Origin: an uncultured Candidatus Hydrogenedens sp.
GTDB lineage: Bacteria > Myxococcota > UBA4151
Length of the DNA stretch: 32,224 nucleotides
Direction: 5' to 3'
NCBI GenBank assembly: GCA_902574205.1
Contig: CACGMS010000014.1
Span: 1 to 32,224, forward strand
The position numbers and the translations under genes are program-made. Shown in pieces: positions 23,889-28,535 of this stretch (positions are counted from its first letter, which is position 1; every line of letters starts with the position of its first letter). The notes beneath the pieces are model-generated. The model worked only from the letters and a program-made list of their open reading frames with translations. It made no database searches and was not told the DNA's origin.

Positions 23889-24797
23889 CTAGCGACAGGG
23901 GCCCATATTACGAACGCTGGTACCGGCAGCATTCGCAAGACATGAATTGCTGTAGTCAACGTTATCGCAACCACAAACGGGTTCATCGATTTCAGCACAG
24001 GCTTGTGGACGAACTTGGCAGCTGCCACCAACACTTTCGTTCTCGCGTGGACAGCTTCCGTCTCGGCGATTGCAAAAGTGGGTTGGAGCGCACATCATTG
24101 GCGCATTGACGGGCCCACAAGCACCATCGCCTCGAGGCGGTGGCGGGGGGTCGCCTGCGCAAGCACCATCATTTTGTAGTTGCACACGAGCGTTGATCAA
24201 CTGGCATAGGTTCGGATACGTTCGATCATCACAGCCGCAGACCGGATCATAATTCCTTTGACAATCCTCTCTCACCTCTTCGCAGGTGCCGCCTTCAGGT
24301 CGTTGCTCGCCGCAGGCAAGTCCACGCTCCAAGCAAAATTCATCCTGTGCGCATTGGCGACCATTGGCTAATCCGCAGCCTGCTTCGCAACTGCCCCTAT
24401 GCGCAACGGAGACCCCTTGGCCGTGAGCCATGCACTCATTATCGTAGGTATTACCATCGCAACCACAAACGGGTGCGTACAGGCGATTGCATACTTCCGG
24501 AATCCAAGCGCAGGTACCACCCATGTCTGTACGTCCACACATGTGATCGATAGGGAACAAGCAGAAGGCACCCTCGCCGCAGTCAAGATTAACACCTCGC
24601 GTACCGCAGACCCCCTCTGGTAAACCCGCGTCTTGAGAGCCAGAACCCCCATCAACAACTGATGAACCGCCGGCGTCATCGCCGGGCGAGACACCGGAAT
24701 CAGGAGTCGGGTTCGACCCTGCATCGTTTGCAGGTTCAATCGGTTCCGGACAGGCCGTGACCATTCCAATAACACAAGTCAGGACTAGCAGACGCAT
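23889..24797 (-). CDS. Lipoprotein with three Kazal-like modules
   Basis: The product is about 302 aa from the ATG at 24797; the track start at 24830 adds eleven residues ahead of a good lipoprotein signal (MRLLVLTCVIGMVTAC, lipobox VTAC). A D-A/S-G tether follows (NDAG, PDSG, DDAG, VDGG, QDAG). Then come three tandem units of ~70 residues, each a small Cys knot (LDCGEGAFCLF...CG) plus a Kazal core: YAPVCGCDGNTYDNEC, YDPVCGCDDRTYPNLC and DEPVCGCDNVDYSNSC. Kazal domains are serine-protease inhibitors, and lipid-anchored versions could protect the cell against its own or foreign proteases; inhibitory activity is inference, and bacterial Kazal-like repeats are not always inhibitors. Units 2 and 3 are joined by a PPPPP linker. 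It is in the same direction as the PPC lipoprotein upstream and ends at a clear terminator. Confidence 0.85.
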   Translation of the reverse strand: MRLLVLTCVIGMVTACPEPIEPANDAGSNPTPDSGVSPGDDAGGSSVVDGGSGSQDAGLPEGVCGTRGVNLDCGEGAFCLFPIDHMCGRTDMGGTCAWIPEVCNRLYAPVCGCDGNTYDNECMAHGQGVSVAHRGSCEAGCGLANGRQCAQDEFCLERGLACGEQRPEGGTCEEVREDCQRNYDPVCGCDDRTYPNLCQLINARVQLQNDGACAGDPPPPPRGDGACGPVNAPMMCAPTHFCNRRDGSCPRENESVGGSCQVRPQACAEIDEPVCGCDNVDYSNSCLANAAGTSVRNMGPCR

Positions 24798-24876
24798 AGC
24801 GATTCTCTCACAGACGGGCGCGCAGACCATAGCGGCCTGTTTGGCTTATCGCCACTTTTGAGTGAAATACTTATGT

Positions 24877-26571
24877 TTATGGCTCTGTAAACTCTAAGAC
24901 TAAGTTCACCGCGCCGACGCTGCGTTCATAAAATCCATCGGCGACGATGGTGTAGGTTCCAGCAGCGAGTTCCACGTCGCTGATTCTGCTGAGTTTGTTC
25001 TCTTCGCCGATGTCATCATGACACGCTATTTCATCGAGACCGCCGCAACCACGCAGTAAATACACGACTGTATCATAGCTATCGCCTCGATCGGAGAAGC
25101 CGGTATAGGCAGTGAGTTGGGAGGGGTTATCAAGTGTGAAGACAAAGGCACGTTCACGCCCTTGGCCGCGTGATCGTTCGGCACAGGTGCGCGGCGCGTA
25201 CTGGCGCCTAGCGTTCTCGTTTTCGATCGGTATACTCAACCGTCCATTGTCAGGGATTTCGATCCGCTGTGCGGTGTCGCAGGTCGGTCCTGGGTCCGGT
25301 TCTTCGTAGGCCAACGTGACACGCAACTCAAAATCACCGCTCGTGGTCCGAAAGCCATCGGCGATGAGGTAATAGGTGCCAGCTTCCACTTGCTCTCGAA
25401 AGCGAGCATCCGTTCGTCTCATATCCTCACCGCCGCGATGGTCGTCGTTGCAGTTGAGTTCTGTTTCTACGTCAGCGCAGGTACTGCGAAGTGATAACAC
25501 CGGATCAAAGCCATCGGTTTGCGACACCATTTCGGCGACGAGGGTACCACCTCCTTCAGGGACAACGAGTGCATACACCGCATCAGCAGCAGCGCTGCGT
25601 GGTTCATTGTTGCGATGACCGCAGCTTGGCTCGTACGTGTTGTTGAGCCCGCGCGTCGATCCTTCGATCACTACCCTCTCGTTACGCACAAGTTCGATGG
25701 TTTCAGCTTGGTCGCAGCTGTTGTTTCCATCGACCTCTCGCTCGAGCAACAAGTCGTATGCGGTTTCCAGCGTCTCAGGCCCGCTGACCTTTAAGAAGTA
25801 GACACCTTCGCGCTCACTTCGATGCTCGAGGACTTGATCGCCATCTCGCTCTTGAGCTGTACTGATGACACGGTCACCACTGTCATCAAGTAATTCCAGA
25901 ACCAATTCTGTAGGACCATCGACGACGGCTCGGATGTCGCTGTCTGCTGGGGCACTGAAACGGTAATAGTCGACATCTCCGCAGAAGGTGAGATCGTTGT
26001 GCTCGCCGCCTGTAATTCGTTCCGCTCCACCTGCGCTGTTGTTGTTTTCATAGCGATCATTGCGGCAGCGGTTCATTTCGACTTCGACGCTTAGCGAGTA
26101 GTTGGACGCTCGTCGCGAGGCGTTGGTCACACGAACAAAAAGTTTGGTTTCATCATCGATCCACGCACTGGTGATGGAGCGACCTCTGCGTTCAACCGAG
26201 ACAGCAAATTCAGCTTCGTTGTTGAGGATCTGAAGGTCGATATCTCCGGCACCATCGTGCTGCAAAATGATCCGCTTGCGTTGGTTCTCGCCAATTTCAA
26301 TCCAGTACCAGTCCTCATTACCAGGACAGGCTATAAGTTCTTCATCTTCTGCGCGCTCGATCGGCGCAGAGGTGCCTTGGTCATCATTCGCCTCGAGCGA
26401 GTCATCGACGCAACCAGGGACATTCTGACCCCCATCGGTAGGCGCAACGCCTGCATCAGCGCCAGGATTATCAGTCATGCCAGAATCCGGGAGTAACGGG
26501 CTCGGTCCATCGGGCGCTGTGACACTGCAGGCGCCAAAGGTGATAAGCAAAAGAATGACGGTGATACGCAT
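24877..26571 (-). CDS. Lipoprotein with about four PPC (pre-peptidase C-terminal-like) beta-sandwich domains
   Basis: The product is 564 aa. The signal MRITVILLLITFGAC is followed by a D-A/S-G tether (PDSG, ADAG, TDGG). The rest reads as four PPC-type modules of ~110-130 residues with the usual DxYEPNN/DDSLEANDD start, DWYWIEIGENQ / DYYRFSAPAD strand, and a closing AGTYYLIADGF or GTYTIVADGF strand: roughly residues 53-167, 168-285, 286-425 and 428-564. The third and fourth contain disulfide-compatible Cys (CADVETELNCNDD, CGGLDEIACHDD) near acidic residues. PPC domains bind ligands or mediate secretion and are usually attached to proteases; here no catalytic domain is present, so a structural or binding role at the surface is likelier. 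AGAGG is 6 nt before the ATG. A 79-bp gap separates it from the Kazal-type gene; they may form an operon ending at 23809. Confidence 0.8.
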   Translation of the reverse strand: MRITVILLLITFGACSVTAPDGPSPLLPDSGMTDNPGADAGVAPTDGGQNVPGCVDDSLEANDDQGTSAPIERAEDEELIACPGNEDWYWIEIGENQRKRIILQHDGAGDIDLQILNNEAEFAVSVERRGRSITSAWIDDETKLFVRVTNASRRASNYSLSVEVEMNRCRNDRYENNNSAGGAERITGGEHNDLTFCGDVDYYRFSAPADSDIRAVVDGPTELVLELLDDSGDRVISTAQERDGDQVLEHRSEREGVYFLKVSGPETLETAYDLLLEREVDGNNSCDQAETIELVRNERVVIEGSTRGLNNTYEPSCGHRNNEPRSAAADAVYALVVPEGGGTLVAEMVSQTDGFDPVLSLRSTCADVETELNCNDDHRGGEDMRRTDARFREQVEAGTYYLIADGFRTTSGDFELRVTLAYEEPDPGPTCDTAQRIEIPDNGRLSIPIENENARRQYAPRTCAERSRGQGRERAFVFTLDNPSQLTAYTGFSDRGDSYDTVVYLLRGCGGLDEIACHDDIGEENKLSRISDVELAAGTYTIVADGFYERSVGAVNLVLEFTEP

Positions 26572-26750: not shown

Positions 26751-28535
26751 ATGAGTAAGACGAACTACCTAACAGCGCCATTAGCAACAACGAGTCTCCC
26801 AAAGGGGATCCCGTACATCATTGGTAATGAAGCAGCTGAGCGATTCAGTTTTTATGGCATGAAGGGTATTTTGACCATTTTCATGACCAAGTACCTCTTC
26901 TTGTTGTCGGATACAGCGGGTACTCCGATGGCGAAAGCTGAAGCGATTGCGCGCTATCACGATTTTACCTTCTGGGTGTATTTGACACCAGTACTCGGCG
27001 CTTTTCTCGCGGACTGGTTGTTGGGTAAATATCGCACGATTTTAAGTCTTTCGATCGTGTATTGTTTGGGACACTTTGCGCTGGCATTCATGGGGAGCGG
27101 CGGCTTGTCTGCCGAGAATTGGATGCTGACCGGTCTGTATCTGATTGCGTTAGGCTCCGGAGGCATTAAGCCCTGTGTTTCGGCTCACGTTGGTGATCAG
27201 TTCGGACAGACCAACAGCCATTGGCTAACCAAAGTGTTTGGTTGGTTTTATATCTCGATTAATGTTGGTGCAGCGTTGTCAACCTTGGCGACGCCGCTCT
27301 TGCTTGAATGGTACGGACCTCACTGGGCTTTTGGTGTGCCCGGTGTCTTGATGGCGTTGGCGACACTGGTGTTTTGGATGGGGCGAAAGGTATTTGTCCA
27401 TATTCCGCCTCGTGGAAACGAATTCATCAAAGAGGTCTTCTCGCCCGAAGGACATAAAGCGGTCGGTAAACTCTTTATCATCTTCTTGTTTGTCGCTGTC
27501 TTCTGGGCGCTCTTTGATCAAACGGGATCATCGTGGGTTTTGCAGGCTGAAGATCTGGATCGTAACTGGCTCGGTATTCATTGGTTGTCGTCTCAGATTC
27601 AAGCGATCAACCCGATTATGATCGTTACCTTGGTCCCCTTGTTCAGTTATATTGTTTATCCAGCGATCGATAAGGTGTTTCCGCTCACACCTTTGCGTAA
27701 AATTTCGATCGGTCTGTTCGTCATGGTTCCGGGTTTTGCCATTGTTTCGATCGTACAAAGCTGGATTGATGCAGGGCAAACGCCTTCCATCGCTTGGCAG
27801 CTGTTCGCCTATGCGATTTTGACGGCATCTGAAGTCATGGTCTCCATTACGTGTTTAGAGTTTGCGTATACTCAAGCGCCTAAGAACATGAAGTCGGTGA
27901 TTATGGCGGTGTTTTTGTTCTCGGTCTCCTTGGGCAACTTTTTCACGGCGGGTGTCAACAAGTTCATTCTGGTGGAAAAGGGCGATGCAAAGACCGTGAG
28001 TGAGACCTTTAAAGGTCAGCTTGCGAGTTTAGATGCCACGGTTCGAACTGCATTTACTCAAGCGGGTGAAGTCCTGCCTCGCACCGGTAAAGGCGGCGAG
28101 TTACTCAATCAAGCCAGGGATGAATGGGGTAGCCCGATTCAATACCGTATGATTAATCGCAACAACTTCAAGCTCACGTCTCTTGGTCCGGATCAAACGT
28201 TTATGACCAAGGATGATGTGGTGCATACCGTATCGATCGCCAGGCCATCGACGAATAAAGATGACGTCGAAAAACCGCTGAATTGGCGTGAGACTCGCTT
28301 GATCGAGTTGTTGGGCGATAAAGGCAAAGCGCAGGTCGATCGAGAGCGAGGTGGTGTACCCACAACGGAATTCACAGCGACCCTGAGTGTTGGCGGTGAG
28401 ACCAAGCTCGAGGGGGCTGCCTATTTCTGGTTCTGGACATGGACTATGCTGATTACGGCGATCCTCTTTGTTTTTGTTGCGCTTTGGTACAAGCCCAAGA
28501 TGTATCTTCAGGAGGAAGCCAGCGCGCAAGCATAG
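26751..28535 (+). CDS. POT-family (PTR2) proton-coupled oligopeptide transporter with a large periplasmic insertion
   Basis: The product has 594 aa, longer than the usual ~450-500. The family hallmark ExxERFxxYG is present at the N-terminus (NEAAERFSFYGMKGIL), where the two Glu and the Arg couple proton and peptide movement, and LGSGGIKPCVSAHVGDQFG is the second POT signature. Eleven hydrophobic segments run to SVSLGNFFTAGVNKFIL, then a soluble stretch of about 145 residues precedes the final helix YFWFWTWTMLITAILFVFVALWY. With inside N- and C-termini the insertion faces the periplasm. Inside it, DEWGSPIQYR ... NNFKLTSLGPDQTFMTKDDVV reads like the C-terminal half of a type II secretion major pseudopilin. 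It should import di-/tripeptides with H+. A stem-loop precedes its RBS. It is probably a single transcription unit. Confidence 0.9.
   Translation: MSKTNYLTAPLATTSLPKGIPYIIGNEAAERFSFYGMKGILTIFMTKYLFLLSDTAGTPMAKAEAIARYHDFTFWVYLTPVLGAFLADWLLGKYRTILSLSIVYCLGHFALAFMGSGGLSAENWMLTGLYLIALGSGGIKPCVSAHVGDQFGQTNSHWLTKVFGWFYISINVGAALSTLATPLLLEWYGPHWAFGVPGVLMALATLVFWMGRKVFVHIPPRGNEFIKEVFSPEGHKAVGKLFIIFLFVAVFWALFDQTGSSWVLQAEDLDRNWLGIHWLSSQIQAINPIMIVTLVPLFSYIVYPAIDKVFPLTPLRKISIGLFVMVPGFAIVSIVQSWIDAGQTPSIAWQLFAYAILTASEVMVSITCLEFAYTQAPKNMKSVIMAVFLFSVSLGNFFTAGVNKFILVEKGDAKTVSETFKGQLASLDATVRTAFTQAGEVLPRTGKGGELLNQARDEWGSPIQYRMINRNNFKLTSLGPDQTFMTKDDVVHTVSIARPSTNKDDVEKPLNWRETRLIELLGDKGKAQVDRERGGVPTTEFTATLSVGGETKLEGAAYFWFWTWTMLITAILFVFVALWYKPKMYLQEEASAQA

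Follow-up and report, generated by a model that had tools for sequence, protein, structure and literature searches.

A predicted POT-family peptide symporter with a putative GspG-type ectodomain between its last two membrane helices

An uncultured bacterium's DNA of 32,224 nucleotides (the window, meaning the whole stretch analysed) encodes a peptide symporter of the POT family whose penultimate and last membrane helices are separated by a soluble domain most likely related to the GspG pseudopilins. Taking sequence, structural models and analogy with mammalian carriers together, we consider it fairly probable that this domain is an accessory ectodomain, stabilised by Ca2+, which docks periplasmic partners rather than serving as a part of a secretion machine. 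In the scenario that we propose, the globular T2SSG domain of a GspG-type protein would have been inserted, probably once, into the periplasmic TM11-TM12 loop of an ordinary proton-coupled peptide symporter, in the ancestor of a POT subfamily found today mainly in Verrucomicrobiota and Planctomycetota, and the window's lineage would probably have obtained its copy horizontally. The unchanged 12-helix core would perform transport, while the insert would be a rigid ectodomain anchored on the C-bundle, probably Ca2+-stabilised via a conserved S-x-G-x-D...D loop and most likely keeping a periplasmic partner (a peptidase, secreted-protein machinery or a peptide donor) near the mouth of the carrier, a role also proposed for the ectodomain, unrelated to this one, of mammalian PepT1 and PepT2.

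The carrier gene occupies positions 26751-28535 of the forward strand and encodes 594 amino acids. By family and fold its product is a POT/PTR2 proton-coupled oligopeptide symporter, for which transport of di- and tripeptides is predicted. The Pfam search placed PF00854 far over its curated cut-off (277.9 bits versus 27, E 1.6e-82) and the closest solved structure by sequence is PepTSo (2xut, E 2e-91), which bears out the identification as a POT peptide transporter made in a preliminary description of this DNA. The full-length AlphaFold (AF2) model, computed with a 66-sequence alignment as input (mean pLDDT 92.4, pTM 0.91), contains twelve long membrane helices and has the POT fold, as judged by its Foldseek match to PepTSo 4uvm (E 3e-23). 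TM1 carries the conserved POT proton/peptide motif E27-x-x-E30-R31 (EAAER; 26829-26843, forward strand), which is nearly invariant, with at least 90% conservation in the 66-member alignment A2. The last two helices of the model are TM11 (residues 378-406; 27882-27968) and TM12 (residues 555-579; 28413-28487). The products of two neighbouring genes on the reverse strand (23889-24830 and 24877-26571) are probably exported; one has three Kazal protease-inhibitor domains and the other a PPC domain.

Residues 407-554 (27969-28412), a stretch of about 145 residues missing in two relatives (L004 and L134), separate TM11 from TM12. From POT family topology we infer that this loop faces the periplasm, because POT N-termini are cytoplasmic. 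In the AF2 model it folds into a pair of helices and three strands, followed by three short helices and a last, fourth strand. The preliminary description had reported a soluble stretch of this length between the last two helices and quoted motifs from it; position and motifs (residues 457-466 and 474-491) were both correct. It had also considered that the segment might be disordered, and here the models agree with its expectation of a folded domain: pLDDT is mostly 91-97 within the full-length model and 85 for the domain modelled in isolation. Disorder or a frameshift artefact is ruled out by these values in the insert and by a reading frame that is conserved across phyla.

Within the insertion, the GspG-like T2SSG core (28002-28241), supported by the AF2 model, by hhalign against 40 GspGs and by PF08334 matches in 32 of 61 homologues, comprises alpha1-C (418-437), alpha2 (445-451), beta1 (464-469), beta2 (472-477), a Ca-loop-like segment and beta3 (490-497). 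Two short motifs mark it in the 61-member insert alignment and in alignment to GspG: D-E/P-W-G at residues 457-460 (28119-28130) and the putative Ca2+ loop S-L-G-P-D...D-D at residues 477-489 (28179-28217). They are followed by a C-terminal extension without a GspG counterpart (28257-28391), consisting of three short helices and beta4 (540-547), and by a conserved GG(Q/E)xxLxG linker (residues 548-555; 28392-28415) that leads to TM12. D457, G479, W512 and G548 are conserved in 61/61 members of the insert alignment, and D481, G549 and G555 (60/61 each), S477 and D489 (59/61 each) and R516 (56/61) are near-invariant. S477, D481 and D489 coincide with the position of the GspG calcium loop, which suggests that the beta2-beta3 loop of the insert binds Ca2+. 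W512, R516 and the linker, on the other hand, have no counterpart in GspG and may fix the insert to the transporter. Most longer inserts, together with L064, L071 and L080, possess a second Ca-loop-like motif, GxDGxxGTxDD, upstream of the GspG-like helix; it is missing from the window and from L002, L060 and L061.

The preliminary description had drawn attention to a likeness with GspG in the C-terminal beta-sheet and the Ca loop. This likeness is real, and the insert is most likely homologous, though divergent, to the globular T2SSG domain found in these pseudopilins. Searched alone, the window segment stays under the curated cut-offs of Pfam and NCBIfam (13.5 bits versus 21 for PF08334), with T2SSG (PF08334, E 0.075) and GspG (TIGR01710, E 0.04) as its top matches. 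Against whole genomes it matches a 113-aa gene (G020:C24; E 1.7e-4, 41% identity), whose identity as T2SSG is given by a PF08334 match at the same place. T2SSG is matched by 32 of the 61 insert homologues at E <= 0.1 (best E 4.2e-6) and is the only Pfam family with more than one matching member among them; PF08334 moreover exceeds its 21-bit cut-off within two insertion-bearing POT genes (23.7 bits in G197:C209 and 21.8 bits in a 722-aa frame of G202). When the insert profile was compared with all PDB sequences, the first five matches (3g20, 1t92, 5wda, 29jd and 2kep; E 0.008-0.06) were all GspG, and the insert profile A1, run on genomes, retrieved prepilin-bearing T2SSG genes (L216, L217) as well as free-standing T2SSG proteins. 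Profile-to-profile comparison by hhalign against the 40 GspGs gave 97.5% probability and a score of 72, while 200 column-permuted profiles reached a maximum of 23.4 and the reversed profile 9.4. Masking DPWGN lowered the probability to 91% and masking SxGPD too lowered it to 12%, which places the signal in the region from beta1 to the Ca loop.

This reliance of hhalign on two motifs is what one might expect if the likeness were convergent, a short beta-hairpin and a Ca-loop-like motif having arisen on an unrelated fold, and the extra helices and fourth strand of the insert point the same way, as does a Foldseek comparison with the PDB that returned nothing significant. Such an origin nevertheless appears very unlikely to us, given that the order and spacing of motifs agree with GspG across 53 columns (89 extended), that the structural elements follow in the same order, and that single inserts share 28-46% identity with GspGs over 38-104 residues, with E down to 1.7e-8 within the 40-sequence set. 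The AF2 order of residues 418-497 (alpha, alpha, beta, beta, loop, beta) is that published for PulG (PMC6692295), and insert and GspG present the same succession of preceding helix, LP.(T/S).EG segment, beta1, beta2, loop and beta3. In the Foldseek search of the isolated domain model, the best PDB match had an E of 0.63, and a single type IV pilin (5g2f, from Thermus) appeared at rank 47; the structural likeness to GspG may be obscured by the additional helices and strand at the C-terminal end. The structural comparison proposed in the preliminary description was therefore negative as far as a significant Foldseek match is concerned, and the fold finds its support in the order of elements; it is for this reason that we rested homology on sequence and regard a shared fold with GspG as probable.

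Homology to a pseudopilin does not make the insert one. We rejected the idea that it is a pseudopilin, and hence a part of the T2SS machine, since residues 407-554, which begin after TM11, contain neither a prepilin signal nor a hydrophobic alpha1-N, and since in the alignment to GspG little is left of the alpha2/beta1 loop and the C-terminal peptide of GspG is replaced. Hydrogen exchange has shown that alpha1, the alpha2/beta1 loop and the C-terminal peptide of PulG are protected in the pilus, whereas alpha2, the sheet and the sheet loops remain exposed (PMC6692295). With most of the former elements missing or replaced, the POT insert keeps mainly the face exposed on a pseudopilus, without most of the parts that build the pilus.

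A looser relation to secretion could still be imagined, in which the insert couples the transporter to the T2SS, through the pseudopilus, GspC or another part, and so sets peptide uptake beside protease secretion. Some genomic context speaks for such coupling: at nine Phycisphaerales loci, belonging to a divergent clade, a secretin gene lies downstream of the POT gene and convergent with it, and 13 of the 16 genomes searched have T2SSG genes. In G200 (L218:2101-17993) a T2SS operon, in which GspE, F, G, K and D were confirmed by Pfam and the others are probable, ends beside the POT gene, with an asparaginase gene just upstream of the latter on the same strand. However, this adjacency is limited to one Phycisphaerales clade and the genes are convergent, not co-transcribed; the parts that the insert has lost or altered are those buried in the PulG pilus (PMC6692295); and no T2SSG match was obtained in three of the 16 genomes, two of them insert carriers (G199 and G205), although these genomes may be incomplete. 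In the window, no T2SS gene occurs among the POT neighbours examined, so the gene does not sit within a T2SS operon. Among the flanking genes of 80 loci, no operon partner common to the carriers was found, only synteny at the level of clades, involving asparaginase, a DUF255 protein and T2SS in Phycisphaerales and other genes in Verrucomicrobiota. The Phycisphaerales adjacency is thus the only hint of a link with secretion, and the suggestion in the preliminary description that the insert contacts a secretion machine finds little support, as the insert lacks the elements that form the pilus and, that one clade excepted, the gene is unlinked to T2SS in most carriers. We regard coupling to the T2SS as improbable. 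As regards the layout of these loci, the POT gene stands end to end with T2SS genes at L218, L065, L069, L073, L092, L094, L104, L107, L124 and L129, and in Phycisphaerales the asparaginase gene, found at 10 loci altogether, and the DUF255 protein gene are immediately upstream of it.

What the insert contributes has to be read against a transport core that is complete and relatives that dispense with the insert, both of which suggest that it is accessory. We favour a docking ectodomain, because the ectodomain of mammalian PepT1 and PepT2 binds trypsin and is not required for transport (PMC4597091). By this analogy we conjecture that the insert docks a periplasmic partner, to which specific claim we would give a little less than an even chance. 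A more intimate role, the capture of substrate peptides or a change in the periplasmic gate in response to Ca2+, could be argued from the way in which the GG(Q/E)xxLxG linker ties the insert to the C-bundle, from the invariance of W512 and near-invariance of R516, and from a full-length model that is confident throughout (pTM 0.91). GspG, however, is not known to have a peptide-binding cleft, and the insert-free relatives retain the transport motifs. Uptake was also unaffected by removal of the PepT2 ectodomain (PMC4597091), and all in all we think capture or gating rather unlikely. Our order of preference is accordingly docking first, then peptide capture or gating, then contact with the T2SS.

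The survey of homologues called for in the preliminary description revealed that the insert is not unique to the window but carried by tens of Verrucomicrobiota and Planctomycetota genomes. Cultivated species are among the carriers, for example Roseibacillus persicicus (L068) and Haloferula luteola (L135). The 80 relative loci come from one scan of genome contigs and are nearly all titled as one of these two phyla; with the insert profile, a POT with a GspG-like insert was found in at least about 10 of 289 Verrucomicrobiota and at least about 14 of 294 Planctomycetota genomes, both counts being lower bounds from scoring part of the candidates. In the window's phylum, probably Myxococcota, the insert occurs only in the window and in G029 among 195 genomes. 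A tree of the transporter core, computed without the insert, unites the window, the G029 locus (L002) and two loci titled Verrucomicrobia in one clade (SH-aLRT 99), and this grouping suggests that horizontal transfer probably brought the copy into the window's lineage. Most genomes being drafts, an error of binning may be the alternative explanation; the L060 and L061 genomes, however, encode pseudopilins different from those found in relatives of the window, and the hosts therefore seem to differ.

Other occupants of the same loop add to this picture. L004 and L134, 59-63% identical in alignment, have no insert and keep the transport motifs; L003, from a genome of the window's own family (G002), has PKD domains in its TM11-TM12 loop (L003:2659-3381; PKD_4 33.9 bits versus a cut-off of 27); and L133 and L138 have inserts of other kinds there, without family assignment. 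The tree appears compatible with a single gain of the GspG-like insert, and no recent copy of a genome's own gspG was seen in the sample, the best matches being GspGs of unrelated genomes. One might go further and see in bacterial POTs a set of swappable TM11-TM12 ectodomains, GspG-like in PVC bacteria and the window's lineage, PKD in a sister lineage and none in others, which would be convergent with PepT1/2 and of which the GspG-like one, at least, would couple uptake to the T2SS or to cargo proteases; we hold this to be a long shot.

Ectodomains have been described as completely absent from bacterial POTs (PMC4597091), a statement that the insert-bearing subfamily contradicts, and PepT1/2 as the only known MFS transporters with an ectodomain between TM9 and TM10 (PMC8565842). 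Our literature searches, which covered few subscription journals and preprints, found no description of a POT-pseudopilin fusion. The POT lineages with GspG-like and PKD domains could offer a tractable bacterial model for the role of POT ectodomains, and the former illustrate how the globular domain of a pilin may be employed as a periplasmic module of general use, with no filament involved.

Compared with known systems, the window's carrier shares with POT/PTR2 symporters (PF00854; PepTSo 2xut/4uvm) the 12-helix core, the E-x-x-E-R motif and the invariant POT residues. In bacterial POTs of known structure there are extra helices HA-HB and no soluble domain (PMC8565842), whereas our model has no added membrane helices between TM6 and TM7 but contains a soluble domain inserted between TM11 and TM12. 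With GspG/PulG (PF08334; TIGR01710) the insert has in common the order alpha1-C, alpha2, beta1, beta2, Ca-loop, beta3 and the DPWG and SxGPD...D motifs; it differs in the absence of a prepilin signal, alpha1-N and a GspG-type C-terminal peptide, in its shortened alpha2/beta1 loop, in its extra helices and beta4, and in its location inside a transporter. Mammalian PepT1 and PepT2 (SLC15A1/2) likewise bear a soluble ectodomain in an outside-facing C-bundle loop of a POT carrier, but theirs is built of two immunoglobulin-like folds and placed between TM9 and TM10 (PMC4597091, PMC8565842), while that of the window's carrier is GspG-like, lies between TM11 and TM12 and is, in the AF2 model, of mixed helices and strands, not Ig-like. 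Finally, free-standing T2SSG proteins of Planctomycetota resemble the insert in using T2SSG outside a pseudopilus, although they are not transporters. One (L215:850-1536, reverse strand) is lipoprotein-like, lacks a prepilin helix and carries its T2SSG domain (54.9 bits) at the C-terminus; three planctomycete frames of 1061-1181 aa (L210, L211 and L212) combine an N-terminal membrane helix with three tandem T2SSG-like domains, and T2SSG exceeds its curated cut-off in L212 and L215. Such proteins suggest that the use of the GspG globular domain outside filaments is a recurring theme in these phyla.
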